Part shown: piece by piece, positions 1,786 through 17,695 of the stretch
How the letters are laid out: each line of letters opens with the position of its first letter
Position numbering within the stretch: the stretch's first letter is position 1
Assembly (NCBI GenBank): GCA_020720405.1
Contig: DYOS01000025.1
Span: 1-34,634, forward strand
Direction of reading: 5' to 3'
Source: Caldithrix sp.
GTDB lineage: Bacteria > Calditrichota > Calditrichia > Calditrichales > Calditrichaceae
DNA: 34,634 nucleotides
Notes under the pieces: generated by a model
What the model was told of the DNA's origin: nothing
What the model saw: the letters and a program-made list of their open reading frames with translations, nothing else
Database searches by the model: none
Program-made: the position numbers and the translations under genes

Positions 1786-4722
1786 TTACTTTTGTAATAA
1801 AATTTTCTGGCGGATGGTTTCTTTACCGTCAAAGGTGATCTGGAAGAAATAAACACCCGAGCTGACCTTGCTTCCGGATTCATCATCCGAATCCCAGCGG
1901 GTCACATTCATACCGGTTTGCGAAATACCTTCAAACACCGTCTTCACCTTCTGACCCAGCATATTATAAATTTCCACTTTTACACCAACCTGCTCCGGTG
2001 TATAGAAATTAATATTGGTTGTCGGGTTAAAAGGATTGGGAGCATTAAAGGCAAATTTTTCACCCGGCTCTGCCGTCATCCGGTCGGACGCACCATCGGC
2101 CATTTGCGATCCGGAAGCGGAATTACCGCACTCTTCCACATTGGCCGCAGGATCATATACATAACCCGATTTGCTGACATTGGTCACGCAGAAGGTGAAC
2201 TGGGCATTGGAAGCCGTGCTCCAGCCGGAATAGAAAGTTACCGTTCCCGAAGTACCCGTGGTTCCCTGCACATTACCGCTGGCATTACCCGACCAGGTAC
2301 CGTTAACCGTAGCACTGGCCACCTCCGTACCATTGGCATCCACAATTTTAACCGTGGCCACCCCGCGCGAGCGTTTCTTCAAAGTCTGTTTTGTTACGGT
2401 AACATCGGCCACATGAAGCGCAGGCTGGGTATTTTCATTTACCGTGATATAATTGGTTTTGACCTGCTCATCACTGCCACAGGCATTGGAAGCCGTCAAC
2501 GTAACCGTAAAAGTACCAGCTGCCGTGTAGGTATGGCTTGGATTCTGCGTCGTGGCAGAACCGCCGTCACCAAAATTCCAGCTCCACCCGGTTGGTGTAT
2601 TGCTGGAAAGATCGCTGAAATTTACAGCCAACGGCGCTGTTCCGCTGATTGGTGTGCCGCTGAAATCGGCAACCGGCGGATTGCAGACCGGTTCATTGAC
2701 CACCACATAATTAACCTTGGTTTCACCGTCACTGCCGCAGGCATTGGAGGCGGTTAAGGTTACCGTATAGGTTCCGGCAACCGTAAAGGTATGGCCCGGA
2801 TTCTGGACTGTCGCTGAACCGCCATCACCGAAATCCCAGCTCCAGCCGGTGGGCGTACCGGTCGATTGATCGGTAAAATTCACTGTCAACGGTGCATCTC
2901 CGCTCAGCGGGGTTCCGCTGAAAGCGGCCACTACCGTGGAATTTACCGTGATATAATTATTCTTGGTTTCGCCATCCGAGCCACCCGGACCAGTCACCGT
3001 CAGAGTTACGGTATAGGTTCCGGGCGTGGTATAATTATGCGCCGGATTCTGCGCCGTGGAAGAACCGCCGTCGCCAAAATCCCAGCTCCAGGAATCCACA
3101 TCACCGGTGGACTGATCGGTAAACTGAACGTTCAGGCTGCCGCAGCCGCTGGTTTGATTGGCCGTAAAATTAGCCGTTGGAGCCGATACCCCGCCGTCGT
3201 TCAGGGCATTGAACAGATTTACCCGGCCCGCACCCAGTTTTCCGGCAAAAGCGCTGTTACCGGGAATTCCGGAAATATCATCCGCGGTATCGAAGAGACG
3301 TTGTTTTACCTGCGCTGCTGACCAATCCGTATGTTTCGACCAGATAGAGGCGGCAACACCGGCCGAAAGCGGAGTAGCCATTGAAGTACCGCTGAGGGTA
3401 GCCACATAATCATTATTCGGATCATTGTGATCATGATAGGTGCTGACGATATCCGTGCCCGGCGCAGAAATGTCGACAAATGTGCCGTATGTCGAAAAAT
3501 CCGATTTCACATCATTCTGATCGGTCGAGGCAACACCAATAACATCGGCCCGGTCGAGCATATAATCAGAACCTTCATCGTTATCATTACCGGCAGCTTT
3601 GAAAACCAGTCCGCCGGAGGCCACAAAATAATCAATGGCATCTCCCAAACCGCCGCTGTTGGAAGAACCCCAGGAGCAAGAGGCGATTCTGGCACCATTA
3701 TTTGCGGCATAGGTAAAGGCACTGGCCGCAAAATCCATTTGAACATAACCGACTTCGTAGATAAACAGGCGACCGGAATAACCGATACGCATCGGCATAA
3801 TACTCACGCCGTTTCCAGCAGCCTGCTGACTGCCGTTCATCCAGCCGCCGGCCGGTGAGGCAACCGCATAATTATTATTATTGATGGCTCCGACGATACC
3901 GGCGCAATGCGTTCCATGGCCGTTAAAATCACGGGGATCATTATCCGGGGTGCTGACGTCTTCCCCTGTCCAGCCGGATACGCCGGTTACGAAATCCCAG
4001 CCGATCCAGTCGTCGGTAAAGCCGTTGCCATCGTCATCCACATTGGCAGCGCCGTTTTTCTCCGCCTGATTGATCCACATATTACCATCAGCGGCCGTCG
4101 TATTGCTCGATGAAGCATTGGCGCCACCCAAATCTTTATGGTAATAACGGACACCGGTATCCAGAATGGCAACAATAATCTGCGGATTACCGGTACCCAG
4201 ATCCCAGCCTTCCGGTGCATCAATATCGTGATCGTTAGCCTGGTTCAGATGCCACTGGCTGCTGTAACTTCCATCGTTCGGAGTACTGGCATAGACTTTA
4301 TGAATACCGATCGGCTGGGCGTCAGCCACACCGGATAAACGGCGGTATTCCCGGGCTACCGTTTCGGGATCAACATCCGCCGCATACTCAACAAGGAACC
4401 ACTGCTGCATATTGATTTCCCGGCCATTCAGAAAACGTAGCGGAGCATCCGGAAAACGCTGCTTCATAGCGGAAACAGCAAAACGCGAAGACAGGGCATC
4501 CAGGGCCTGAATTCCGCTGCGGCCCGAGCGCTCGGCATTTTTCAGTTGGATGGTCTGTAAAAATTCCTGATTGATCTTCAAAACAAACTGCTGCTTTGCA
4601 TAACCCTGAAAATTAGCTGAATTATCCTGAGCCTTTTGAACCTGAGCCACTTTCAGTTCAGTGGCCATGGCGGATAACAGCATCAGATTGATTAAAAAAA
4701 GCGTTAAAGCAATTCTTCTCAT
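1786..4722 (-). CDS. Secreted S8 subtilisin-like protease with three PKD domains and a C-terminal sorting domain
   Basis: Numbering from the chosen ATG (978 residues): signal peptide 1-20; inhibitor-I9-like propeptide about 40-145; S8 catalytic domain about 165-505. The triad is visible as Asp188 in VAILDTG, His269 in NGHGTH and Ser447 in SGTSMATP. Three PKD domains, each with a W-FGDGGS core, cover about 516-763, followed by a beta-rich segment. A FlgD/Ig-like sorting domain occupies about 885-978 (NAPNPFNPTT, YNMLGQKV, SSGVYFF). Such C-terminal domains direct export and surface attachment by a type IX-like route in FCB bacteria; applying that here is inference. The ATG at 4722 is preferred over 4767 because GGAGAA precedes it and a clean signal peptide follows. 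It is monocistronic, with its own terminator. The likely role is extracellular protein breakdown. Confidence 0.93.
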   Translation of the reverse strand: MRRIALTLFLINLMLLSAMATELKVAQVQKAQDNSANFQGYAKQQFVLKINQEFLQTIQLKNAERSGRSGIQALDALSSRFAVSAMKQRFPDAPLRFLNGREINMQQWFLVEYAADVDPETVAREYRRLSGVADAQPIGIHKVYASTPNDGSYSSQWHLNQANDHDIDAPEGWDLGTGNPQIIVAILDTGVRYYHKDLGGANASSSNTTAADGNMWINQAEKNGAANVDDDGNGFTDDWIGWDFVTGVSGWTGEDVSTPDNDPRDFNGHGTHCAGIVGAINNNNYAVASPAGGWMNGSQQAAGNGVSIMPMRIGYSGRLFIYEVGYVQMDFAASAFTYAANNGARIASCSWGSSNSGGLGDAIDYFVASGGLVFKAAGNDNDEGSDYMLDRADVIGVASTDQNDVKSDFSTYGTFVDISAPGTDIVSTYHDHNDPNNDYVATLSGTSMATPLSAGVAASIWSKHTDWSAAQVKQRLFDTADDISGIPGNSAFAGKLGAGRVNLFNALNDGGVSAPTANFTANQTSGCGSLNVQFTDQSTGDVDSWSWDFGDGGSSTAQNPAHNYTTPGTYTVTLTVTGPGGSDGETKNNYITVNSTVVAAFSGTPLSGDAPLTVNFTDQSTGTPTGWSWDFGDGGSATVQNPGHTFTVAGTYTVTLTASNACGSDGETKVNYVVVNEPVCNPPVADFSGTPISGTAPLAVNFSDLSSNTPTGWSWNFGDGGSATTQNPSHTYTAAGTFTVTLTASNACGSDEQVKTNYITVNENTQPALHVADVTVTKQTLKKRSRGVATVKIVDANGTEVASATVNGTWSGNASGNVQGTTGTSGTVTFYSGWSTASNAQFTFCVTNVSKSGYVYDPAANVEECGNSASGSQMADGASDRMTAEPGEKFAFNAPNPFNPTTNINFYTPEQVGVKVEIYNMLGQKVKTVFEGISQTGMNVTRWDSDDESGSKVSSGVYFFQITFDGKETIRQKILLQK
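2434..3177 (-). repeat. Three tandem PKD-domain repeats in the subtilisin gene
   Basis: Three consecutive units of about 80 codons share the W-FGDGGS...QNP.H.....GT.TVTLT pattern. Units two and three are nearly identical over long stretches (TPTGWSW, FGDGGSAT, TVTLTASNACGSD), while the first differs more. This points to a recent duplication of the second or third unit. Confidence 0.8.
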
Positions 4723-4839
4723 GTTTAATTCTCCATGCAATTTGTGTATTAGTCTTTTGTAAAACATTGCTGAAACATAATTATCTGCCAGACCCTCCCT
4801 TCTTTGATGCCGGATATTTTTACGGCACTGCGGTTCTGC

Positions 4840-5865
4840 TTAATCAGCCGTCAGATTATGTAACTGACTGTCGATTCTGAGTACCGGTTTTTTCAGACTT
4901 GTATCGCTTTGTATCTGGATAAATAGTTTAACAAGAGCCGGATCGAATTGTGTACCGGCATTTTTTTTAAGCTCATCCAGTGCAACCTCCGGGGTTTTCT
5001 TCTCCCGGTAAATACGGTTGGATACGATTGATTCATAAGCATCGGCAATGGTCAGTATTCTGGACATAAGCGGAATCGCATATCCGCTGAGCTGATCCGG
5101 GTAACCATTGCCATCAAATCTTTCATGGTGGTTGCGGATAATCAGGGCAACTTCCTTTAGTGCACCAATTTTCCCGACAATTTTACTGCCGATAACCGGG
5201 TGTTCTTTGGCGGTGCGGTATTCCTTCTCCAGCAGGGAACTGGATTTCTTCAGAATCTGATCGGGCATGCCTATTTTTCCTATATCATGCAAAATGGCGC
5301 TCAGCTCCAGGGTGAAAAGATCATCTTCATTAAAACTCAGGGCATGCCCGAGCATCATGGCGTACCGGGCTACCCGCACCGAATGGCCGGATGTATAACT
5401 GTCCTTCGCTTCCAGGGCCGCAATCAGAACGCGGATAGCTTCAGTCAAACCATGAATTTTAATCTGGTGGTCGTGGAGACGTTCCATGTGCTGCCGCTCC
5501 AGGTTGCGCTGGATAATGGTTGGCAAATTATGCAGATGAAATGGCTTGGAGATAAAATCATTGGCCCCGCTGCGCAGGGCGGTGGTGATCAGGCCGGGAT
5601 CATCTGACGAAGTAATAACGATAAAAGCGGTGTTCTTATCGGTGCGACGGATTTGCCGTAAAAAATCAAAACCATGTCCATCCGGCAAATTAAGGTCGCA
5701 GATCACCAGATTTATAACTTTTTCCTTGATAATTTCACCGGCCCCGGCCAGGGACACGGTATGATGGCAATGATAAAACCGGCTGTTCAGCGTTTCACAA
5801 ATTCCGGCTGCCGTTACCGGATCGTCCTCAACGACAAGAATTTCTATTGGGTCTATGGTGTTCAT
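4840..5865 (-). CDS. Response regulator with HD-GYP cyclic-di-GMP phosphodiesterase output domain
   Basis: The 341-residue protein has an N-terminal receiver domain (about 7-120) with acidic residues at EDD 13-15, phospho-acceptor Asp57 in VICDLNL and Lys107 in FISKPF. A linker helix follows, then an HD-GYP domain (about 145-320). Its metal and signature residues are visible: His161, HD at 193-194 in LHDIGKIG, HH at 246-247, the DGNGYP motif at 251-256 and Asp275 in IADAYES. It should hydrolyse cyclic-di-GMP when phosphorylated. No partner histidine kinase lies in the window. The ATG overlaps the stop of the acyl-CoA dehydrogenase gene as ATGA, so translation is probably coupled. I see no convincing terminator downstream. 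Confidence 0.92.
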   Translation of the reverse strand: MNTIDPIEILVVEDDPVTAAGICETLNSRFYHCHHTVSLAGAGEIIKEKVINLVICDLNLPDGHGFDFLRQIRRTDKNTAFIVITSSDDPGLITTALRSGANDFISKPFHLHNLPTIIQRNLERQHMERLHDHQIKIHGLTEAIRVLIAALEAKDSYTSGHSVRVARYAMMLGHALSFNEDDLFTLELSAILHDIGKIGMPDQILKKSSSLLEKEYRTAKEHPVIGSKIVGKIGALKEVALIIRNHHERFDGNGYPDQLSGYAIPLMSRILTIADAYESIVSNRIYREKKTPEVALDELKKNAGTQFDPALVKLFIQIQSDTSLKKPVLRIDSQLHNLTAD

Positions 5866-7025
5866 TTAAATGCACTAATTCCTGTAATATGTTCACCCAG
5901 TATCAGGGTATGAATGTCACGTGTGCCTTCGTAAGTAAGAACGGATTCAAGATTAAGCAGATGGCGGATGGTCTGGTATTCATCTGTAATACCGTTGGCT
6001 CCGAGAATGGTCCGCGCCTGTCTGGATGTAACCAGCGCCATATCAACATTATTTCGTTTGGCCATAGAAATATGAAAATGCCTGGCTTGGCCGGCATCTT
6101 TCAGCCGACCCAGCCGGTAGGCCAGCAACTGGGCTTTGGTTATTTCCGAAAGCATTTCGACCAGCTTATGCTGGGTTAACTGAAACGAGGCGATGGGCTG
6201 CCCGAATTGAATCCGCGTCCGGGCATATTGCAGTGCCTCATCATAGCAGGCCATGGCCGCACCAATCACCCCCCAGGCAATACCGTAACGGGCCTCATTC
6301 AGACAGGAAAGCGGCGCTTTAAGACCCAGGGCCAGTGGCAGACGGTTTTCTTCCGGCACGAAGCAATCCTGGAAGGAAAGCTCAGCGGTATCGGAAGCGC
6401 GCAGCGAAAATTTGCCTTTTATGGTATTGGCGGTAAAACCTTTAAAATCTTTTTCCACCAAGAAACCGTTGGTGCCCTGCGGGGTTTTGGCCCAAACCAC
6501 AGCCACATCGGCCAGAGTACCATTGGTGATCCACATTTTACTGCCATTCAGCAGCCAGCCGCCATCGGCCGGAACAGCCCGGGTTTCCATGCCTCCCGGA
6601 TCGGAGCCGTGATCAGCTTCGGTCAGGCCAAAACAACCGATTTTTTCTCCGGCTGCCAGTGCTGGCAGGAACTTCAGCTTTTGCATTTCTGAACCGTACT
6701 GATAAATCGGATACATAACCAGTGAACCCTGAACCGATGCAAACGAGCGCAGACCGCTATCTCCCCGTTCCAGTTCCTGCATGGCCAGGCCGTAAACCGT
6801 ATGGCTAAGCCCGGCTCCGCCGTATGCTTCAGGGATGGTTACACCAAGAACACCTAATTCGCCAAGCTGTGGGATGAGTTCTGTTGGGAAAAGACCCCGG
6901 CCGTGATATTCCCTGACCAGGGGCAGAAATTTATCTTCGACCCAGGTTCGCAGTGTATCCCGGATCATTCGTTCTTCAGGAGAAAACAAATCGGAGAGCT
7001 GATAAAAATCAATATCAGTGAACAT
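5862..7025 (-). CDS. Acyl-CoA dehydrogenase, glutaryl-CoA dehydrogenase-like
   Basis: This 387-residue flavoprotein has the usual N-terminal helical, middle beta and C-terminal helical domains. Resemblance to glutaryl-CoA dehydrogenase is close: ELERGDSGLRS carries the substrate-contacting Arg (about 93), followed by VQGSLVMYPIY. The C-terminal block has NGITDEYQ and LTYEGTRDIH with the catalytic Glu at about 366. The family oxidatively decarboxylates glutaryl-CoA to crotonyl-CoA in lysine and tryptophan breakdown, passing electrons to ETF. The ATG at 7025 is chosen because family members begin near MF..DF; the upstream ATG at 7064 adds 13 residues without a better binding site. It overlaps the HD-GYP regulator gene by four bases. 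No other lysine-degradation gene is nearby, so another short-chain acyl-CoA substrate is possible. Confidence 0.9.
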   Translation of the reverse strand: MFTDIDFYQLSDLFSPEERMIRDTLRTWVEDKFLPLVREYHGRGLFPTELIPQLGELGVLGVTIPEAYGGAGLSHTVYGLAMQELERGDSGLRSFASVQGSLVMYPIYQYGSEMQKLKFLPALAAGEKIGCFGLTEADHGSDPGGMETRAVPADGGWLLNGSKMWITNGTLADVAVVWAKTPQGTNGFLVEKDFKGFTANTIKGKFSLRASDTAELSFQDCFVPEENRLPLALGLKAPLSCLNEARYGIAWGVIGAAMACYDEALQYARTRIQFGQPIASFQLTQHKLVEMLSEITKAQLLAYRLGRLKDAGQARHFHISMAKRNNVDMALVTSRQARTILGANGITDEYQTIRHLLNLESVLTYEGTRDIHTLILGEHITGISAFK

Positions 7026-7139
7026 AATGCCCGTATCAGATTTTATTGTCAACAAATTAGGCATAGCCTAATGAACCATTGTGCTTCAGGTCTGAAATTT
7101 TTACTTCTTTTCCTGAAGCCTGAAAAATACAGCTCTTTT

Positions 7140-8879
7140 TTAAAATATCAAGTTTACTTCAAGCCCGTAAATCAAACCATTATACGATTCATTGCTGTTG
7201 AAATAGAGCGGACCATAATCCGGGTTGGCAATGATTTCTTTGGCGGTTTCCGGTGAATAGGCAAACTGCCGCTGGTTTGTACCGGCCAGGGCTTTGACGG
7301 AGAAATATGAGGTGAAGAAAAATTCCAGAGAAAGATCAGCAATAATCTGCTGATAATCGTTGAGCAGGTCTTTTGTACCACCGTTACCGGCATTGTTGAG
7401 AATTACACTGATGGTTGATTCAAAAGTGAGTTTTTGCGGCACTATATCCCAGCGGCTGGATTCATAAAGGTAAAGATTGGTATTGGTTTCGGGTTTGTCG
7501 TCCGAATTGCTCTCGGTAAGTTTAAGTGTGCTGTAAACCGCACCGCCGGAGATATTCAGAACCGAAGCCGGCCTGAAATACATATTTACAGTTCCAACCA
7601 TCTGGCTTGAGGACAAGGGATTCCCGGCACTGAGCACACTGTTATCATCCTGGCTTATATACAATCCGGAAACAGAAAAACGGTTTGAGCCAATATTGTG
7701 AGCGAGACGAACCTCCCCAGAGTTACTAACCTTTTTTGTCTGAATATCTTTATCATCTGCATCGGTTAGTTCATCACTCCGGTCACCCCGGCGGATATAT
7801 TTAAGGTGCATTTCCGGCCAGCCGGAGAATTGTGTGGTTACACTAAAAATACCGGAAAGGGTCTGCGTAGTCAGGGTATTCGAATCATCGTTGAGGTTAT
7901 TATGATACTGTTCCAGATCGAGGTTAAAAAGCAGACGACCCGGCCAGAGGTAACCACCGGATAGAAAAAAACCCTGCCGGTCATTGAGAAGATAGGGATA
8001 ACCGGCTGTAAAATAATCAAAACCGATACGCTGATACGTTGTATTCAGCCAGATCCGGCTCAATCTGAAATCAAGCCCGGTCTTGTAGCTGTTATCCCGG
8101 GCTGAACCGGCATTCAAGGTATCTTTGTTACTAATATAACCTTCTCCGAACAATTTCAGGCGGTTGCTGAACAGGGAAACCTGGGCCTCCCCGCCGCTGG
8201 CCCGGTTGCTGACCGGTGGATTATACGAGCTGCTGATGGAAGTACTGTCATCCCGGCCATAGAGGTAATTCAGGCTGAGCTGGTAACGACCCGTCTCGCC
8301 GCCCGTCAGGCGCGAATAGGCAAAATTCCGGCGATACAGACCAGACGTTTCATACTGTTTATATAAGCCGATCAGCCGGCTGTCCTGTTGGAAAGATTTC
8401 TGAACGATACCGGCCACGGAATGGGATTCTATAAAAGCTTTGGCATTCCAAAGATTTTCAAAATAGAGATGTACTTTCCCACCACGGACTTCCCGGCTTT
8501 GAATAAACATTTCAGAACCGGATTCAAAAAAATCTCCAAGGACGATTTCGTGCCGGTCAAAACGGGTGGTGAAGGAAAGGCGGTTGACCGTTTTCAGGTC
8601 TTTGATATCAAACCGGTTCCAGACATTATTGCTCAAATCGCCCAGCAGTGTCATATCAAGGCGGCTGGTTCGGGCAAAAATGGCCAGGTTAAAGTTTTCC
8701 TGCAAACCAGGAATCAGCGATGCTTTACTGTAATCCTCATCGGCAATGGAATCCGGCTTGATCTGCGAAGTTTCATTATACTGGGTTTGAGTGGTTCGTA
8801 CCGAAATTCTGCCGGTCACATCCAGTCCCTGAGCAATAAGCAATAGCGGCAGAAAAAGAAAGTACAGAATATGTTTCAT
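7140..8879 (-). CDS. Putative outer-membrane beta-barrel protein, function unknown
   Basis: A 579-residue protein with a signal peptide (MKHILYFLFLPLLLIAQG, cleavage about 18). The rest has alternating polar and aromatic residues typical of amphipathic transmembrane strands, with many Y, F, W, N and S residues and turn-rich spacers. It ends in a strand closing with Phe (GLEVNLIF), the classic terminal signature of outer-membrane barrels. It lacks a TonB box or plug domain and I recognise no specific family. It begins 16 bases after the FecR-domain gene, so it is very likely the third gene of the cluster starting at 16873. A pore or anchor for the secreted partner proteins is a reasonable inference only. 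Confidence 0.7.
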   Translation of the reverse strand: MKHILYFLFLPLLLIAQGLDVTGRISVRTTQTQYNETSQIKPDSIADEDYSKASLIPGLQENFNLAIFARTSRLDMTLLGDLSNNVWNRFDIKDLKTVNRLSFTTRFDRHEIVLGDFFESGSEMFIQSREVRGGKVHLYFENLWNAKAFIESHSVAGIVQKSFQQDSRLIGLYKQYETSGLYRRNFAYSRLTGGETGRYQLSLNYLYGRDDSTSISSSYNPPVSNRASGGEAQVSLFSNRLKLFGEGYISNKDTLNAGSARDNSYKTGLDFRLSRIWLNTTYQRIGFDYFTAGYPYLLNDRQGFFLSGGYLWPGRLLFNLDLEQYHNNLNDDSNTLTTQTLSGIFSVTTQFSGWPEMHLKYIRRGDRSDELTDADDKDIQTKKVSNSGEVRLAHNIGSNRFSVSGLYISQDDNSVLSAGNPLSSSQMVGTVNMYFRPASVLNISGGAVYSTLKLTESNSDDKPETNTNLYLYESSRWDIVPQKLTFESTISVILNNAGNGGTKDLLNDYQQIIADLSLEFFFTSYFSVKALAGTNQRQFAYSPETAKEIIANPDYGPLYFNSNESYNGLIYGLEVNLIF

Positions 8880-8895
8880 CTCAATCCCTTGATAT

Positions 8896-10344
8896 TTAGC
8901 GAATGGTGATTACCCGGTTGGTTTCCCGAACAATGTTTCCGGCCAGGTCCTCAGCCTGAATCAGAATCCGGTTTTCACCCCGCACCAACTGAATATCAGC
9001 TTCAAAACTGCCGTCGGTACGCGGTTTAACCGGTTGACCGTTGATGAGAATGCTTTTCAGACCGGAACTCGGCTCGGGGTCAATTATAATACCGCGGATT
9101 TCCTGAGTAAAGCGCTGATCCTTTAAATTTATAAATTTATCCGGCGGGGAGGGCGGTTCATTTCTGAGAAAATTCGGGTTGGCCGGTTGAGTGATGGTAA
9201 TAATTGGTTTTACCGTGTCCAGAAAAAGCACTTCGGATTTCTCCACCACATTCTCCGAGCGATCGACAGCTCTCAACTGGATGGTATTTTTACCCTCATT
9301 CAGAATGATCGTCCGGTTAAAACTGCCCCGGCCTTCGACATCAGCCACAATCTCACCATTAATAAAAACCCTTACTTTATCCTGTGGGGTAGGATCAAAA
9401 ATAGCGCCTGACAGGCTGTAATCCCGGCGATTCAGAATGCCGGCCACCAGCGGTGTCGAAAAGCGGATTTGCGGTTCCTGGGTATTTACAAAAAAGCCTA
9501 CCCGGTTTTGAGTAGTTTCACCGTTCAGCTCAGCAACCACGGTAAATTCATTTAAACCTTCCCGGGCCGGAAGAAAATCGCGGATATTACCATTGGCAGC
9601 AACCGCTAATTGTACACCGTCGGCGGTTACTTTGGCACCGGGAGAAGTTTGTCCGGTCAGTTCAATGCCCCGGCCGATAACGGACTGGTCGGTATAATGA
9701 CGCTGCAGCGGATTGAGTTGAAGGATCAGGGCTGATTGCTGGCGGTTTTGTTCCTGGGTTTCAAATTTTCTGGGCTGCGTCGGATTCTCACCGCTGCGGA
9801 CTTCGGTCTCCTGACTCGATTCAACCAGTACTTCGCCCTGTCCCAACTTACTGGTCACCGCCACCCGGCCTTCAAAGACGCGCACTGTGGTGGTTTGCTG
9901 TTCATTGACGACCATTTCCAGTTCTGTGCCGCGGATAGCGACAACAGCGCTGGGACTTTCAACTTTTCTGGATTGCCTGGTGTTGACGGCTTTGCTGAAT
10001 CTGGCCCACATATTTCCGGCCCACAGCGTAAAATTCATTTCATCACCGCTAGCATCATTTATCAACTTGCTGACATCAAATATACTGTTCTCATTCACCC
10101 GGATTACCGATTTGTCCGGCATTTCCAGTTCAACGCGGGAGGCCAGCCTGGTCCGGATACGGTCGCCCTGACGGACTTGTCCATTGAGGGCAATTTTATT
10201 CCAGGTTGTTTTTCCGTTTGGCAGAAGATCAGCATCACCAATCAGGAATTTCACCCGGGCGGTTTGCTCCTGAGCCATCACCTGCAAGACCAGGAACAGT
10301 AGTATGGGCAGAACCAAACCATTTTTTACTTTATGCAATAACAT
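8896..10344 (-). CDS. Secreted FecR-domain protein with Ig-like repeats
   Basis: The 482-residue protein has a signal peptide (to about residue 24, VMAQ). A FecR domain follows at about 55-170: GDRIRT, a SRVELEMPD segment, SPSAVVAIRGTELE and VRVFEGRVAV. Two or three Ig-like/beta-sandwich units then run from about 210 to 482, with INGxxV and GENxIxIxAxD patterns. FecR domains are best known from anti-sigma regulators, but here there is no cytoplasmic N-terminus and no ECF sigma gene nearby, so a regulatory role is unlikely. It probably acts in the periplasm or at the surface, perhaps binding glycan or scaffolding its neighbours. The ATG follows GGGAGC by about five bases and lies 10 bases beyond the preceding stop. 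Confidence 0.8.
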   Translation of the reverse strand: MLLHKVKNGLVLPILLFLVLQVMAQEQTARVKFLIGDADLLPNGKTTWNKIALNGQVRQGDRIRTRLASRVELEMPDKSVIRVNENSIFDVSKLINDASGDEMNFTLWAGNMWARFSKAVNTRQSRKVESPSAVVAIRGTELEMVVNEQQTTTVRVFEGRVAVTSKLGQGEVLVESSQETEVRSGENPTQPRKFETQEQNRQQSALILQLNPLQRHYTDQSVIGRGIELTGQTSPGAKVTADGVQLAVAANGNIRDFLPAREGLNEFTVVAELNGETTQNRVGFFVNTQEPQIRFSTPLVAGILNRRDYSLSGAIFDPTPQDKVRVFINGEIVADVEGRGSFNRTIILNEGKNTIQLRAVDRSENVVEKSEVLFLDTVKPIITITQPANPNFLRNEPPSPPDKFINLKDQRFTQEIRGIIIDPEPSSGLKSILINGQPVKPRTDGSFEADIQLVRGENRILIQAEDLAGNIVRETNRVITIR

Positions 10345-10354
10345 TTTCAGCTCC

Positions 10355-13300
10355 CTACCTGATTAGAACCATTTTCTTTGAAGCAACGAATGATCCGGAA
10401 ATCGCCCGGTAGAAATAGACACCGCTGGCCAGATTGAGACCATGATCATTCTTCCCGTCCCAGGTCAGTTCCAGGTAACCGCTTTCGGTAGATTTATCAT
10501 ACAGCCGGCGAACTTCCCGACCCAGAATATCATAAATCCTGACCTCCAGTTTCTGACCGGAAGCCTGCACCGGAACGGCAACCCGGATGGTGGTTTGTGG
10601 ATTGAACGGGTTTGGATAATTCTGGAATAATTCAAATTTCACCGGTAGAATTTCAGGTTCAAACTCAGGATTATTGCTCACGAACAATTTAAAATAATTG
10701 ACATCCAGATTGTTCTCGATACTGAAACTGCTTCTCCCGGAAAGGTCGAACCATTCACCGCTGTTAATATGATACAGGTAAAACCTGTACGAAGCCGGCA
10801 AAACCAGCACATCCCAGTTTAGCGTAATCTCCTTGTCCTCTTCTCCCCGTTCAACAACCAGCGTCCATTCCCGCTCATCAGCCAGAGGTGATTCACCGAA
10901 ATCGCTGCTCATCAGTTTATTATCCGATTTGCTGAACAGGCGCAGCCCGGGGATAATCGAAGGAGGCACCGGTCCGCTGCGGAAATGCAGCGGATAGGCA
11001 TCCACCGATTGGCAGGCGCCAAAATAATGCCCACCCGACTGCCACCGGCTGCCGATTGCTTCAATCCGGACCAGAACATCGTTCTGCTGCGAAGCCGGGC
11101 GATTTTCACGGCTGCCCGAAAATTCAATTAACTGTTCTTCGGTGGCCGGTTTCGGATTAAAGGTCATGACCAGTGCTTCATTGGCGAAAATCCAATAGGA
11201 ACGCATGGGCAAAAGCGTACTGCTGGAGTCACGGTAATAATCCATGCGCGGCAGATTCTGCCAGTGCTGTATCGTTGGCCCAAGCCGGCCATCATTCACC
11301 GCTCCGATAAAATCCACAGCCGGACCGGCATTGCCTTTGACCTGCACATCCTTCCAGCTGATCTTCCAGCCCCAGGGATTGCCGACCATATTCCAGCCTT
11401 TCTGCAGACTGATTTCTACCGGGTTAACCCAGGGATTCTGAGTCAGGTTATTCAAATCAACATTCAGGGAGGCATCACCTAACAGCCAGTAACCAGCACC
11501 GGGTTTTAATGAGTCTGGTGAAGTCTCAACATACCGTTCATCCTGCCAGCGTTTTATACTGCCCAGGGTGGATTCTTTTAATTTGACGGATAACTGACTA
11601 ATGCTACGTCCGGGGGTAACCATAGCCCAGAAATTTTTAACCAGCGGTATTTTCCCTGCCGCCAATTCCAGGGTTACCTCATCGGCTGCCGCCGTCCCGA
11701 TGGAACCATTCCCGGAGGTATCCAGCCCGGCCACCTGGAAATGGTAGCGCCCGTCGGCCAGCGGATAAAATTCGATGGTTGTCAGATTGGTGGTGCCGCT
11801 GTCAACCAGCGCTGTATTAACGTTATCCAGCTTTAACAGACGGTAACGGTAGCGAATCAGCTCGGGTGGTGTACCAACCGAGCTGGTCAGGGTATCATTG
11901 GCATCAAAAGTAAAACGCAGTAAAGCTTCATCCCGTACATCCGGGTAATTCCCGGTCAGTCGGGTCAAGGGCGACCGGCTGTCGATGTAGGAAACCAGCA
12001 TATCCACATCCAGCGGCTCAATAACCAGATTATCTTCCGCGGCAAAGAAATTAAGCTTATCATGGTAATGCGTGTCGCGGATCAGCCCCTCACCGGAAAA
12101 ACGCAGCGTGAAATTACCCTGGCTTCCGGTTGGGATCAACAATTCTGACGGTGTAATCGACAGCCACTCAGGCAGTATATCCGGCGGACGGACCGTTAAG
12201 GGCAGGGTGCCGGTATTGTTGACCCGGATGGGAATGCGCAGGGTATCCTCAAGCCCAACCTGAACACTAAGCTGGTGTGGCGTAAATTCAAAAAAACGGA
12301 CATCAACCCGGCGCAACTGAACCGGAGAATAACCGTTCACACCCCCCGAGCTGTCAACAAAAGCAGTTTTGTAAAAATAAGTTTGCCCAAAAACGATATT
12401 GGTATCACGCAGTGCCGGATTAAGCTTCTGATCGATAATGGCTACAATATTACTGCTGTCAGGAATAAAGTCCGGCAAAAGACCGCGGTGGACAACAAAA
12501 CCGCGGAACAGAGAGTCGAGTGCTGCGGCTGGTGTCAGCAGATCAATCTGAATGGCCGAATCAACCTCGCTCAAACTGAACTGCGGTATTTCGCCAAGCA
12601 TGAAGGGCGTACCGATGTTTCCAAACAGACCAATATCGGAGCGGCTGGCCGTGGTATTGACAACGGTTGAATCGCCGGCATCGATAAGCGGTGAACCGGC
12701 AGCAAGTTTGAAGCGGTCCGGATTACCAGCCTCATCCACAGCAAGAAAAGGCGGCTGGCCGTCAAATGGAAAATAATCCTGCACCAGCCGCGGATTGACA
12801 AACAGATTTGTCGGATGAACCTGAGCTGACAGTGGTTGATGCAGGTTGCGGTAAAAATTATTGAATTTCAAAGTAGATGACGGATCTGAATTACCACTGA
12901 AAACCCTTGAATTCTCATAGAAAATGGTATTGACAATCGAGGTCAAAGGTGTGCCGCTCAGTTCAAAAGCACCGCCGGCATCAGCATCATTTTTACCGTT
13001 ATGATAGAAAATGGTATTTTGCAATTTCACAGAACCACCATCGGCTGAAATGACAAAGCCCTGGTGATCCACCATAAATACATTTTGCAGATCAAGACTG
13101 CTGTTGTTCTCGCTGACAATACCGGTTATCGTACGCAGGGAACTGTCCGGATCACCTCCAGCCAGTCCGGCATATTGAAGTTTCAGACTGCCTTGATCGA
13201 CCCGGATGGCAACCTGTCCATTTCTCTCAAAGTCCTGAAAAGACAGGTCAGCTGTACTGTTGTTTTCCAGATGCAAACCACCGGCCCTCAGACTACTTTG

Positions 13301-16300
13301 TGTTTCACCATTCAGACGGAAAGAGCACTGGGTACCTTTCAGCTGCGCATTATTTAATAACACACCCGTTGTGAAATTGCCCTGAATCTGACTATTCCGG
13401 AAAGAAAGGCTGCTGTTCACCACATCCATGCCAGTACCAAAACCGAGAATACTGATGTTTTCCAGATGAAGACTGTCGGCATTGCTTATTTTCAATCCGG
13501 TCAGGGTGTTCATGGTCTGCTGACCGATCAGAGTCATATCCATCAGACGGCAGGAGTCTGCCCCCTCCCCGATGGTCAGAAGCGTGCTGCTAAAAGGCAT
13601 GGTCGGCGGGGGAAGCAGCTTGAAGTAGCCACGGAGTATGATCTTCTCATCAATGCTGATCATTTCCGGATAATCACCATTCGAAACCAGTACGCTGTCG
13701 CCGTCAAAGGCTCGGCTCAGCGCCTCATTCAGGGAATGAAACGGGCTGAGTTTGCTGCCGTCGCCTTTGAAGGAATGATTATCCACATACCAGTTGCGGG
13801 GCAGGCGGGCACCGTTCAGCAGAACGGTAAAATGCGTTGAATCCGCTGATTCGGATAAAAGCAGAAGATCGCTGTCTTCATCGTTATCAATATCGGATGA
13901 AAGGAGGGCGATAGCATTGGTTACCAGGCTTAGTTCAAGAGGCGCCTGCAAGCCGAAATCGGCAGACAAAAGTAATGATATTTTATTATTACTTTTCAGG
14001 ACAGCCAGATCCTGCCGGCCGTCGCCATTCCAGTCGCCATCCACTATATCAAGAATTTTCCAACCGAGCAGCACATTATGGGTGCTGTAAAGTGAGCCTT
14101 CGGCATCCACATTAAAAATCTGCAGACGGCCATCCAGCCCATCAGAACCAACGATAATATTATCCTGACCGCCAAAACCCTGTTCAGAAAAAACAAGCGC
14201 AGTCAAAACCACACCATTCATTAAGACACCGGTGAAATCGGTGATAATGCGCCGGAAACTGCCAAAACTGTTTTCCAGCAGAGCCAGGTTATTAAGGGCA
14301 GAACCGCTGGAGACCAGCATATCCCTCTGCCCGTTAAAATCAGCTTCCATCAGATGGAGCGAGCTGGCCTTCGCCGGAATGACATTAATCTGGGCTGTGC
14401 CCAGGTTATAACCGCCATCATCATAGGCCAGAAATACCCGGACTTCATCATTAAACAGGTCCTCCAGCAGGAGGGCCACATCGGGCAGACCATCATTGTC
14501 AAAATCGGCAACCTGCAGATCCTTGGCCGGACCCTGACCGGTGAACTGTGTGTTCCAACTGTCCAGTTCCTGACCCGTCTGCCAGTCAAAAGCCATAACC
14601 AGGGCCTCGTTGGCCAGAATTATTTCCGTGCTGCCATCGGCATTGATATCTGCCGGGCGGGCAAAAAGAAAATTATCGGAGAGGGAAAAAGTTAAAGGGG
14701 TGCCAAAGCTGCCGCCGGTGTTCAGAATAATACGGAGTTTATCCTGATCAATGTTGATCAGATCCGGCAAAGCATCGTTATTGAGGTGGACCAGCTGCCA
14801 GTCTCCCAACCCGTTGATGCTGAAGGCATCACCCGAATTCAGGTTTCCGCTGCCGCGGAAGGCACCGGTCATGAAATGCCACTGGAAACCACTGGCAAAG
14901 GCACTCCCATCGGCATAAAGCAGGTTCCTCGAAATCGTAACCGTAACATCGGCACCCGCCGGCAATTCCGGAACAGGATGCAGATAAAGCATCTGTTCAC
15001 CACCGGAATAACTGTAATTATAATTCAATGGCCGGCCGTCAAGCTGCAGAAGAACAGATTCCGGATCAAAACTGCTCATATCCAGCGGTTTTTCAAAATG
15101 AATATTGATAACCACATCTTTGGGCAATCCTGTCATCCCCGGTGCAGGATAGACCTTAAATAGAGTATCCAGTGACACACCGACGGCATAATTACCACTC
15201 TGCGGGTTTTCCAGATAAGACATAACTTTGCGCTGCCCGGTATCAACAGAGGATGGCAGTCTGACCCATTTCCCGCTGGTGGCTTCCAGATAAAAAATTT
15301 TCAGGCTGTCAGCCGGAGGATTGCCCAGTTCATTCAGCTCTTCAACGGTATAAGCCAGGTAAAGCTCACAACCCTGTCCGGGATTCAAACCATCGAAATA
15401 GATAGAAAAAGATTTGTTTATAAAACGGATAACTTCATCCGTTACAGCCAGTGTATCCAGATTAGTCAGTACTCTGATCTTCTTCTCGCCGGTCAGGCTG
15501 AGCGGCAATAAATGAAAGTTCAATTCACCGTCACCGAACCAATAACGGGCTTCCTGCTCCTGCAGAATCAGGTTTTCTTCAAAAGGTACCTGTATAAAAT
15601 CCTGCCAGGTTGAATTCAGATTGGGAATACTGATCTGGCTGAATATGGCCGCTGCATCGACCGATCCCCAGTAATTATATTGCAGATTATGGTTGGCCAC
15701 GCCATCCGGTGATTGCAGCGACTGTAAAAACGTACCGTTGTAGTTGTGGTAAAGATTATTCTGCAAATTCTGAGCACTGCCCAGTTCAAAAAGCCCGGTG
15801 TTCTCCAGGTAAACTGCACCGCCGCCCGAGCCGGAGAAATTTCCGGATATCTGGTTGGACCAGAAATTGGCATTGGCCTGCTGCAGACCAATCAGACAGA
15901 CCGCCCCACCATGCTGTTGGGCTTGATTAGCGATAAACTGATTACCGATCACAGTAACCTGACCGGTTTGTATAAAACAAGCCGCACCGCCATCGGCGCC
16001 GGCGGTGTTTTCGGCAAACGTATTATTGCTCAGGGAAAGCGAAAAACGGTTGCCCTGCACATATATACCTCCGCCATCACTAGTAGCGGAATTTGAATAA
16101 ATGCGGTTATTCTGGAGCGAGCTTGAAAATTGTAATGAGGTGCGGTTATCCATATAGATAGCTCCGCCCCGGCCGGATTGATTATGATGCAGGTTATTGT
16201 TGCTGATATTAAGGTTGTAGGCACCACGGAAAGCCAGGCCGCCGCCTTTGCCGCCCTGCGTTTCATTCTCAAAAATCCGGTTTCCACTGATTACAGCAGC

Positions 16301-16873
16301 AGAACTGTCAACCAGCAGAGCTGCGCCAAGCGGCGAATTATTGTGCATAAAACTATTGTTCCGAATCAATGGGATGTGGCTGGATGAAATCGACCGGATA
16401 TGCAGACCACCGCCGAGACTGTCGGTCGTAAAATTATTGAGAAAAACACAATTCTCGATCGTCGCGCTGTTGTCGACAATCAATAAACCAGTCCCTTCAA
16501 CCTGATCCATGTGGCTGAACCGAATACCACGGATAATGGTCTGACGGCTGAGATTCCCGCTCAGGGTCAAAGCAGGACCCGGCGATGGGGCGCTGATTTC
16601 CGGCGGATTATCTGTTATGCTGCCTGCCATGACAAAATCAAAATTAAAACCGGTTTGTACATTTTCGAAGTACATACCGGGATTCAATTTCAGGGTATCA
16701 CCACTGTCCATGCGGCTTAATCCGAAGTTGACCGTTGCAAATGGCGCAGCCTGTGTGCCGTCAGCATTATCATCCCCGGCCGGGTCAACCCAGAAAGTAT
16801 TTTCCTGGGCCTGAAGTCCGCTCAGGGCCAAGGCCAGGAAAGCGGATAGAAATAAATAAAGAAGCTTTTTCAT
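10355..16873 (-). CDS. Giant secreted protein: two beta-helix regions flanking an FG-GAP/VCBS propeller, with C-terminal sorting domain
   Basis: This 2172-residue protein has a signal peptide at 1-22. A DUF1565-like entry at about 26-70 (WVDPAGDDNADGTQAAPF) leads into a right-handed parallel beta-helix to about 410, rich in NN.F..N and GGG(I/L) rungs. An SbsA/Big_5-like Ig domain lies at about 571-670. FG-GAP/VCBS repeats with Asp-rich loops (ADINADG, ADFDNDGLPD, GDWNGDGRQD, SDIDNDED) cover about 690-1020 and should bind calcium. A second DUF1565-like entry at 1027-1070 and second beta-helix to about 1400 follow, then Ig/Fn3-like domains. The FlgD/Ig-like sorting domain is at about 2075-2172 (NYPNPFNPQTT, YDILGREV, ASGVYFYR). 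Beta-helices of this kind bind or cleave polysaccharide or serve as adhesins; no catalytic site can be named. It heads a cluster with the FecR and barrel genes. Confidence 0.88.
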   Translation of the reverse strand: MKKLLYLFLSAFLALALSGLQAQENTFWVDPAGDDNADGTQAAPFATVNFGLSRMDSGDTLKLNPGMYFENVQTGFNFDFVMAGSITDNPPEISAPSPGPALTLSGNLSRQTIIRGIRFSHMDQVEGTGLLIVDNSATIENCVFLNNFTTDSLGGGLHIRSISSSHIPLIRNNSFMHNNSPLGAALLVDSSAAVISGNRIFENETQGGKGGGLAFRGAYNLNISNNNLHHNQSGRGGAIYMDNRTSLQFSSSLQNNRIYSNSATSDGGGIYVQGNRFSLSLSNNTFAENTAGADGGAACFIQTGQVTVIGNQFIANQAQQHGGAVCLIGLQQANANFWSNQISGNFSGSGGGAVYLENTGLFELGSAQNLQNNLYHNYNGTFLQSLQSPDGVANHNLQYNYWGSVDAAAIFSQISIPNLNSTWQDFIQVPFEENLILQEQEARYWFGDGELNFHLLPLSLTGEKKIRVLTNLDTLAVTDEVIRFINKSFSIYFDGLNPGQGCELYLAYTVEELNELGNPPADSLKIFYLEATSGKWVRLPSSVDTGQRKVMSYLENPQSGNYAVGVSLDTLFKVYPAPGMTGLPKDVVINIHFEKPLDMSSFDPESVLLQLDGRPLNYNYSYSGGEQMLYLHPVPELPAGADVTVTISRNLLYADGSAFASGFQWHFMTGAFRGSGNLNSGDAFSINGLGDWQLVHLNNDALPDLINIDQDKLRIILNTGGSFGTPLTFSLSDNFLFARPADINADGSTEIILANEALVMAFDWQTGQELDSWNTQFTGQGPAKDLQVADFDNDGLPDVALLLEDLFNDEVRVFLAYDDGGYNLGTAQINVIPAKASSLHLMEADFNGQRDMLVSSGSALNNLALLENSFGSFRRIITDFTGVLMNGVVLTALVFSEQGFGGQDNIIVGSDGLDGRLQIFNVDAEGSLYSTHNVLLGWKILDIVDGDWNGDGRQDLAVLKSNNKISLLLSADFGLQAPLELSLVTNAIALLSSDIDNDEDSDLLLLSESADSTHFTVLLNGARLPRNWYVDNHSFKGDGSKLSPFHSLNEALSRAFDGDSVLVSNGDYPEMISIDEKIILRGYFKLLPPPTMPFSSTLLTIGEGADSCRLMDMTLIGQQTMNTLTGLKISNADSLHLENISILGFGTGMDVVNSSLSFRNSQIQGNFTTGVLLNNAQLKGTQCSFRLNGETQSSLRAGGLHLENNSTADLSFQDFERNGQVAIRVDQGSLKLQYAGLAGGDPDSSLRTITGIVSENNSSLDLQNVFMVDHQGFVISADGGSVKLQNTIFYHNGKNDADAGGAFELSGTPLTSIVNTIFYENSRVFSGNSDPSSTLKFNNFYRNLHQPLSAQVHPTNLFVNPRLVQDYFPFDGQPPFLAVDEAGNPDRFKLAAGSPLIDAGDSTVVNTTASRSDIGLFGNIGTPFMLGEIPQFSLSEVDSAIQIDLLTPAAALDSLFRGFVVHRGLLPDFIPDSSNIVAIIDQKLNPALRDTNIVFGQTYFYKTAFVDSSGGVNGYSPVQLRRVDVRFFEFTPHQLSVQVGLEDTLRIPIRVNNTGTLPLTVRPPDILPEWLSITPSELLIPTGSQGNFTLRFSGEGLIRDTHYHDKLNFFAAEDNLVIEPLDVDMLVSYIDSRSPLTRLTGNYPDVRDEALLRFTFDANDTLTSSVGTPPELIRYRYRLLKLDNVNTALVDSGTTNLTTIEFYPLADGRYHFQVAGLDTSGNGSIGTAAADEVTLELAAGKIPLVKNFWAMVTPGRSISQLSVKLKESTLGSIKRWQDERYVETSPDSLKPGAGYWLLGDASLNVDLNNLTQNPWVNPVEISLQKGWNMVGNPWGWKISWKDVQVKGNAGPAVDFIGAVNDGRLGPTIQHWQNLPRMDYYRDSSSTLLPMRSYWIFANEALVMTFNPKPATEEQLIEFSGSRENRPASQQNDVLVRIEAIGSRWQSGGHYFGACQSVDAYPLHFRSGPVPPSIIPGLRLFSKSDNKLMSSDFGESPLADEREWTLVVERGEEDKEITLNWDVLVLPASYRFYLYHINSGEWFDLSGRSSFSIENNLDVNYFKLFVSNNPEFEPEILPVKFELFQNYPNPFNPQTTIRVAVPVQASGQKLEVRIYDILGREVRRLYDKSTESGYLELTWDGKNDHGLNLASGVYFYRAISGSFVASKKMVLIR

Positions 16874-16969: not shown

Positions 16970-17695
16970 TTACAATAATCGTTGATAAACCTGATATAAA
17001 TGCCAGATATTGTCCACGTAATTTATCGTTTCATTGTAACCATTAAAATAACCATGTGGCGGCACACCGGAGGGCCATACTTCGAGGTGGAGCTGCCAGT
17101 CACTTTTTTTCAGAGTTGCCAGGTAAGGTTTAACCTGCTCCCAGTGATTGGCAGAACGGTTATAATGCCGGCTGATATCCTGGGCATCAAAAACACGGCC
17201 GATACCGGAATTATAACTGGCCAGGGCCAGCTTGATCCGGTTATCATAATCGGCAGCCGGAAACATACGGTATTGCTTCTTCAGATGATAAATTCCGGCT
17301 GTTATGTTTTCTCTGGGGTTCATAAAAATATAATCTATAGCCAGCTCGCGGCTCAGTTCCTGGGCCGTGCCGGGCATGATCTGCATCAGTCCTTTGGCGC
17401 CGACCCGGCTTTGGGCATCACTGCGGAAACCGGATTCCTGCACAATCTGAGCGGCAATCAGACGCCAGTCAAATCCATAATGCTTGGCATATTTTTTAAT
17501 CACCGGTTTATGGCGTTCCAGGGCCTGGCCAATACGGCTGTCATATAATTCCGCCTGCCTCAGCACAACGGCCGAGTCGGCCAGCCGGACGGATGAATCT
17601 GCCGCAGCGTTTTGGCGAACCGCCTGGGCAGTCGGTTCCGGACGGCAGGAAAACCACAATAAATTCAGCAGAAATATGAGAAAAAGTCTGGTCAT
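16970..17695 (-). CDS. Lytic transglycosylase lipoprotein, SLT domain
   Basis: This 241-residue protein has a lipoprotein signal: a hydrophobic stretch ending LWFSC, with the lipidated Cys at 17. After a low-complexity linker, the SLT/lysozyme-like domain covers about 65-200. It has catalytic Glu87 in VQESGF, then GAKGLMQIMPGTA and LASYNSGIGRV, all standard for the MltC/MltF-type C-terminal domain. It cleaves peptidoglycan glycan strands to 1,6-anhydro products. It lacks the N-terminal solute-binding domain of full MltF. Its ATG overlaps the stop of the DUF350 gene (TGATG), so the two are coupled. Confidence 0.92.
   Translation of the reverse strand: MTRLFLIFLLNLLWFSCRPEPTAQAVRQNAAADSSVRLADSAVVLRQAELYDSRIGQALERHKPVIKKYAKHYGFDWRLIAAQIVQESGFRSDAQSRVGAKGLMQIMPGTAQELSRELAIDYIFMNPRENITAGIYHLKKQYRMFPAADYDNRIKLALASYNSGIGRVFDAQDISRHYNRSANHWEQVKPYLATLKKSDWQLHLEVWPSGVPPHGYFNGYNETINYVDNIWHLYQVYQRLL

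Follow-up and report, generated by a model that had tools for sequence, protein, structure and literature searches.

What do three closely spaced envelope-protein genes in a Caldithrix sp. genome do together? The genes lie on contig DYOS01000025.1 of assembly GCA_020720405.1, and the window analysed here is that whole stretch of 34,634 nucleotides. The initial annotation had read them as one machine without a named counterpart, composed of an exported beta-helix protein, a FecR/Ig scaffold and an outer-membrane barrel. The three open reading frames run from ATG to stop on the minus strand and are separated by intergenic gaps of 10 and 16 bases, exactly as first described. Together with their neighbours they are:

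10355..16873, minus strand: helix gene, 2172 aa, type IX secretion system (T9SS) cargo, optional member of the unit
8896..10344, minus strand: FecR-Ig gene, 482 aa, periplasmic, Sec leader, no lipobox
7140..8879, minus strand: barrel gene, 579 aa, 26-strand outer-membrane beta-barrel (model), Sec leader, C-terminal Phe
16970..17695, minus strand: SLT lytic transglycosylase, conserved upstream neighbour, outside the unit
5862..7064, minus strand: acyl-CoA dehydrogenase (ACAD), conserved downstream neighbour, outside the unit
4840..5865, minus strand: response regulator with an HD-GYP-type domain, 4-base overlap with the ACAD gene, independent

All three products begin with a hydrophobic leader that, by eye, ends in an AQ-type site and has no lipobox cysteine, in agreement with the export signals assigned to them at the outset. 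FecR-Ig and the barrel contain no cysteine at all in the source genome, thus neither is a lipoprotein. The FecR-Ig protein matches the Pfam FecR domain (PF04773, 57.2 bits) at residues about 61-161 and continues with about three Ig-like/Glucodextran_B domains (residues about 205-482). In its structure model (pTM 0.44, with the relative orientation of the domains uncertain) part of the FecR domain is poorly predicted (residues 96-140) and the Ig-like domains that follow are confident. No Pfam or NCBIfam match was obtained for the 579-residue barrel. Its structure model (alignment with 18 relatives, pLDDT 84, pTM 0.74) nevertheless folds as a barrel of 26 strands, as had been anticipated, and the protein ends in Phe, a C-terminal residue common to outer-membrane proteins.

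We surveyed 40 Calditrichota genomes and found the 579-type barrel in 22 of them. FecR-Ig is the immediate upstream neighbour of the barrel in all 22 (in genome G014 the pair is divided by a contig end), usually with a gap of -4 to 17 bases. The conserved-neighbour search proposed earlier therefore came out positive for these two genes, and to this extent the trio is more than a chance assembly. The typical gene order is EIIA, polyprenyl synthase, NlpC, DUF2851, SLT, helix (where present), FecR, barrel, ACAD and HD-GYP regulator. SLT, ACAD and the HD-GYP regulator were considered as partners of the pair and rejected, since they occur in pair-less genomes or away from the pair: SLT is present in 39 of the 40 genomes, pair-less ones included, and lies on another contig in G017 and G020; in G022 it directly adjoins ACAD with none of the helix, FecR or barrel genes between them; and orthologues of the HD-GYP regulator are found phylum-wide, including in genomes without the FecR-barrel pair. 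The HD-GYP gene is followed in many, not all, relatives by a gene for a PKD-repeat subtilase that carries a T9SS tail (1786-4767 in the window).

When 84,980 species genomes were scanned with a pattern-based search, the 579-type barrel turned up only in Calditrichota-group records, one of which is titled Caldisericaceae. This record (L139, JAGHBR010000261.1) carries a Calditrichota-type FecR-barrel pair, and the same contig (G012) is placed within the family of the window, so its title is probably a mislabel. Plasmid searches with the 579-type and the 800-aa barrels described below gave no match, PDB sequence searches with the barrel and FecR profiles gave zero matches, and a viral fold library queried with the barrel returned generic barrel matches only.

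Searching with the 579-type barrel additionally brought up another barrel, about 800 aa long (barrel800). Profile comparison of the two (hhalign) gave a probability of 99.1% and an E value of 5e-19 over 307 columns, and by this measure they are homologous. Barrel800 belongs to an operon that nearly all Calditrichota have and that encodes, in order, a protein of approximately 380 aa without a Pfam match, a 230-aa FecR protein (FecR230), barrel800 and a CHASE2 adenylate/guanylate cyclase. The FecR gene stands before barrel800, and the cyclase lies at most 500 bases from barrel800 in 34 of the 38 Calditrichota genomes that have this barrel; the exceptions include G036, with a distance of about 620 bases, and G014, where the contig ends. 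Four-gene operons of this kind are located at:

L147:4309-10808 (source genome, contig C81)
L118:6375-12851
L166:6039-12502
L167, L169 and L170

In the source genome, barrel800 (L147:6467-8964) is read in two overlapping frames, which reflects either an assembly frameshift or a pseudogene. The full FecR-barrel-CHASE2 order was also detected in other lineages (G046, G084, G093 and G179); in G045 the genes are spread across contig ends, and G092 has the barrel and the cyclase.

The window pair shares with this operon a homologous barrel and a FecR-domain protein directly upstream of it. It differs in having neither the cyclase nor the upstream gene of approximately 380 aa, in a barrel that lacks the approximately 270-aa N-terminal (periplasmic) part, and in a FecR protein with additional Ig-like domains. 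Similarity between the 482-aa FecR protein and FecR230 is weak (27%) and confined to the widespread FecR domain. That the Ig part moved from the barrel to FecR is no more than an impression: comparison of the N-terminal segment of barrel800 with the Ig-like part of the 482-aa protein (hhalign) gave nothing significant (probability 0.3%). No CHASE2 cyclase is encoded in the window, and the CHASE2 genes of the source genome are on contigs C81 and C59. The orphan cyclase on C59 is not supported as the output of the pair, as most pair-less genomes also have a second one. The barrel800 operon is dispensable for the pair, as it was not detected in genome G006 (98% complete), which has the window-type pair.

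Several related loci were seen alongside these families. Related barrels of a third class, about 525-580 aa long (L150:7557-11447, L151:3-3586, L175:1269-4915 and L176:2105-3844), are in two cases encoded beside a TPR or fn3 protein and not FecR. A separate FecR family of approximately 700-770 aa has no barrel of the same family adjacent (L155:9901-12084, L156:8868-11027 and L122:9131-11446). In Azospirillum sp. B510 (L180:5220-9809), a CHASE2 cyclase gene is directly followed by one for an outer-membrane barrel of the ShlB/FhaC type, and a short hypothetical exported protein is encoded in front.

Arrangements that combine FecR, a barrel and a CHASE2 cyclase are already known. In Sinorhizobium meliloti, NsrA is an outer-membrane receptor with a barrel at residues 600-1200, and the CHASE2 cyclase CyaK needs NsrA to respond to a protein signal (PMC7529298, PMC13001267); in Campylobacterota, a FecR-domain outer-membrane protein is encoded in gene clusters with CHASE2 cyclases (PMC9239204). 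On pSymB of S. meliloti we found a gene for a protein of 1218 aa with FecR, TPR and a barrel-like C-terminus, and the next gene downstream encodes a CHASE2 cyclase; the size, barrel position and neighbour of the former indicate that it is probably nsrA. The pSymB barrel has no detectable sequence homology to the Calditrichota barrels, thus the parallel is one of architecture. In both cases a FecR domain and an outer-membrane barrel would make up the outer half of an envelope-spanning unit, but in the window these are two separate proteins, with Ig-like domains instead of TPR and no cyclase at the locus. An exported FecR-domain protein and, next to it, a barrel of the family are present in the window; as no CHASE2 cyclase lies in the same cluster, we file the pair as a paralogue, not a member, of the NsrA-like system. 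The earlier statement that no named system has this composition thus holds in part: the literature searched contained no paper that names the Calditrichota form, whereas its barrel is homologous to, and its FecR protein shares a domain with, parts of the FecR-barrel-CHASE2 system; NsrA/CyaK is probably the example of this system that has been studied. The pair is a conserved variant of this receptor kind that is not described in that literature.

The predicted barrel itself gives a hint of how the two proteins could work together. When strand faces are assigned by hydrophobicity, conservation is higher at lumen-facing than at lipid-facing positions (1.05 versus 1.55 bits), and charged residues are more frequent there (30% versus 14%). 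The width of the modelled barrel, its conserved lumen and its lack of a plug domain suggest that something sits inside, and FecR-Ig would be the candidate occupant.

We therefore propose, with a probability of about 0.5, that the functional core of the locus is the two-gene FecR-Ig/barrel pair rather than the trio, and that this pair is a divergent, cyclase-less and rearranged paralogue of the FecR and barrel half of a FecR-barrel-CHASE2 (NsrA-like) receptor, with a plug or relay role. The barrel would be a 26-strand outer-membrane pore lined by conserved, charged residues, and FecR-Ig would be its soluble partner in the periplasm, capping or plugging it and relaying its state inward to a further partner. 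The helix protein would be a surface protein exported by T9SS whose gene shares the transcription unit of the pair in some lineages, where it may serve as a ligand or a passenger. Observed are the adjacency of the two genes, the homology of the barrels, the modelled barrel fold, the optional helix gene and the presence of sprA; contact between FecR-Ig and the barrel, plugging, sensing, the output route and any connection with the helix protein are inferred. Several findings speak against the proposal: the window pair has no linked transducer, cyclase or otherwise, the HD-GYP, SLT and ACAD genes occurring independently; G006 has the pair without a detected barrel800 operon; the Sinorhizobium barrel shows no detectable homology; the similarity between the FecR proteins is weak; and the pTM of the FecR-Ig model is low. 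A more far-reaching version, which we regard as rather unlikely, would make the pair a distinct class of outer-membrane receptor with NsrA-like cyclase receptors as kin. Its 26-strand barrel and its FecR relay with Ig-like domains would feed another inner-membrane output encoded elsewhere, and in some lineages would sense their own T9SS-exported helix protein as a surface ligand.

The main rival to the receptor-paralogue reading is an envelope scaffold or a channel for large solutes. Here the barrel would serve as a structural porin or a large constitutive pore, with FecR-Ig acting in the periplasm as its plug or as a spacer, and no signalling would be involved. A plug within a barrel is exemplified by LptE in LptD, and the closest PDB fold to the barrel model is MtrB (6r2q_B, TM 0.59), likewise a 26-strand barrel and one that sheathes another protein. 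The 26 predicted strands, the want of a recognisable plug domain, the conserved lumen and the lack of an output gene linked to the pair all speak for such a role. The linkage of the homologous barrel800 to a CHASE2 sensor cyclase, in most Calditrichota that have it and in other lineages, speaks against it, as does the lack of transport or biosynthesis genes linked to the pair, and we consider a scaffold or channel somewhat unlikely. The resemblance to MtrB, a component of the extracellular electron conduit MtrCAB, does not extend further: the window barrel has no MtrB_PioB Pfam match, and no CxxCH motif was found in any ORF of the window or in the helix, FecR and barrel families, so that an MtrB-like electron conduit was rejected for lack of haem motifs.

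The reading originally put forward, a single machine whose barrel and FecR-Ig parts would anchor the giant helix protein or display it, turns on whether the helix gene is a constant member of the set. The helix gene precedes FecR, within the SLT-FecR interval or directly before FecR, in 10 genomes (G000, G001, G006, G015-G020 and G024), the encoded proteins being 28-38% identical; the gaps to FecR are 9-100 bases, and where all three genes are present they probably form one transcription unit. No helix gene without the FecR-barrel pair was seen at this locus. The distances between helix proteins correlate with those between FecR proteins (0.87, ACAD-corrected), as would be expected of a shared history, but this value comes from 28 non-independent pairs and from adjacent genes, and is weak as evidence. 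Nine genomes (G003, G005, G007-G010, G013, G014 and G026) have SLT followed directly by FecR, 96-334 bases apart, with FecR and the barrel retained and no helix gene; G004, G011 and G012 were left out of this count because their contigs end there. On the FecR and barrel tree, the well-supported (starred) branches force at least four gains or losses of the helix gene, and elsewhere in the helix-less genomes the matches listed cover only the C-terminal third of the helix protein. This is the separation of FecR and barrel from beta-helix genes that the initial annotation had named as grounds for giving up its proposal, and the fixed three-part machine is not upheld; the description of surface and envelope proteins that include a barrel and have no sigma partner stands.

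The helix protein also has its own export route. It comprises a beta-helix, Big_5, FG-GAP repeats, a DUF1565 beta-helix, Y_Y_Y and a C-terminal sorting domain (FlgD-like/Por_Secre_tail end), and it is, as noted from the start, the only one of the three products with a sorting domain above the T9SS tail cut-offs (TIGR04183, 36.3 bits versus 23; PF18962, 31.1 versus 27). The source genome encodes SprA (344 bits, contig C227); the helix protein thus combines a C-terminal type A sorting domain with a T9SS in the same genome, as expected for type IX secretion cargo, and needs no separate exporter. With the helix gene optional and T9SS as its export route, a dedicated display machine appears improbable.

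Classical FecI/FecR/FecA transcriptional signalling, with FecR as anti-sigma factor and the barrel as TonB-type receptor, would likewise place a periplasmic FecR domain opposite an outer-membrane barrel, but it is contradicted: FecR-Ig starts with a Sec leader, has no cytoplasmic N-terminal domain and does not span the membrane, none of the 11 sigma-70 region-2 matches in the genome is on the contig of the window (C78), which confirms the lack of a sigma partner reported initially, no TonB-dependent receptor plug or STN Pfam domain was found in 20 barrel homologues, and the barrel has 26 strands, not 22. Exported FecR domains without a sigma partner also occur in the LipL45/Lsa-type proteins of Leptospira; LipL45 is a lipoprotein, unlike the window FecR-Ig, which scores 62.9 bits against NF033165, far below the family cut-off of 350.

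Our results turn what had been described as a surface cluster into a testable unit. FecR-barrel pairs emerge as a family with two forms: one linked to a cyclase and spread over several lineages, the other lacking a cyclase and to date known only from Calditrichota. Should the pair act as a sensor or relay, an outer-membrane barrel would be able to signal through a periplasmic FecR protein without any sigma factor, and the way in which NsrA-like receptors reach CHASE2 cyclases could be studied in a broader family.
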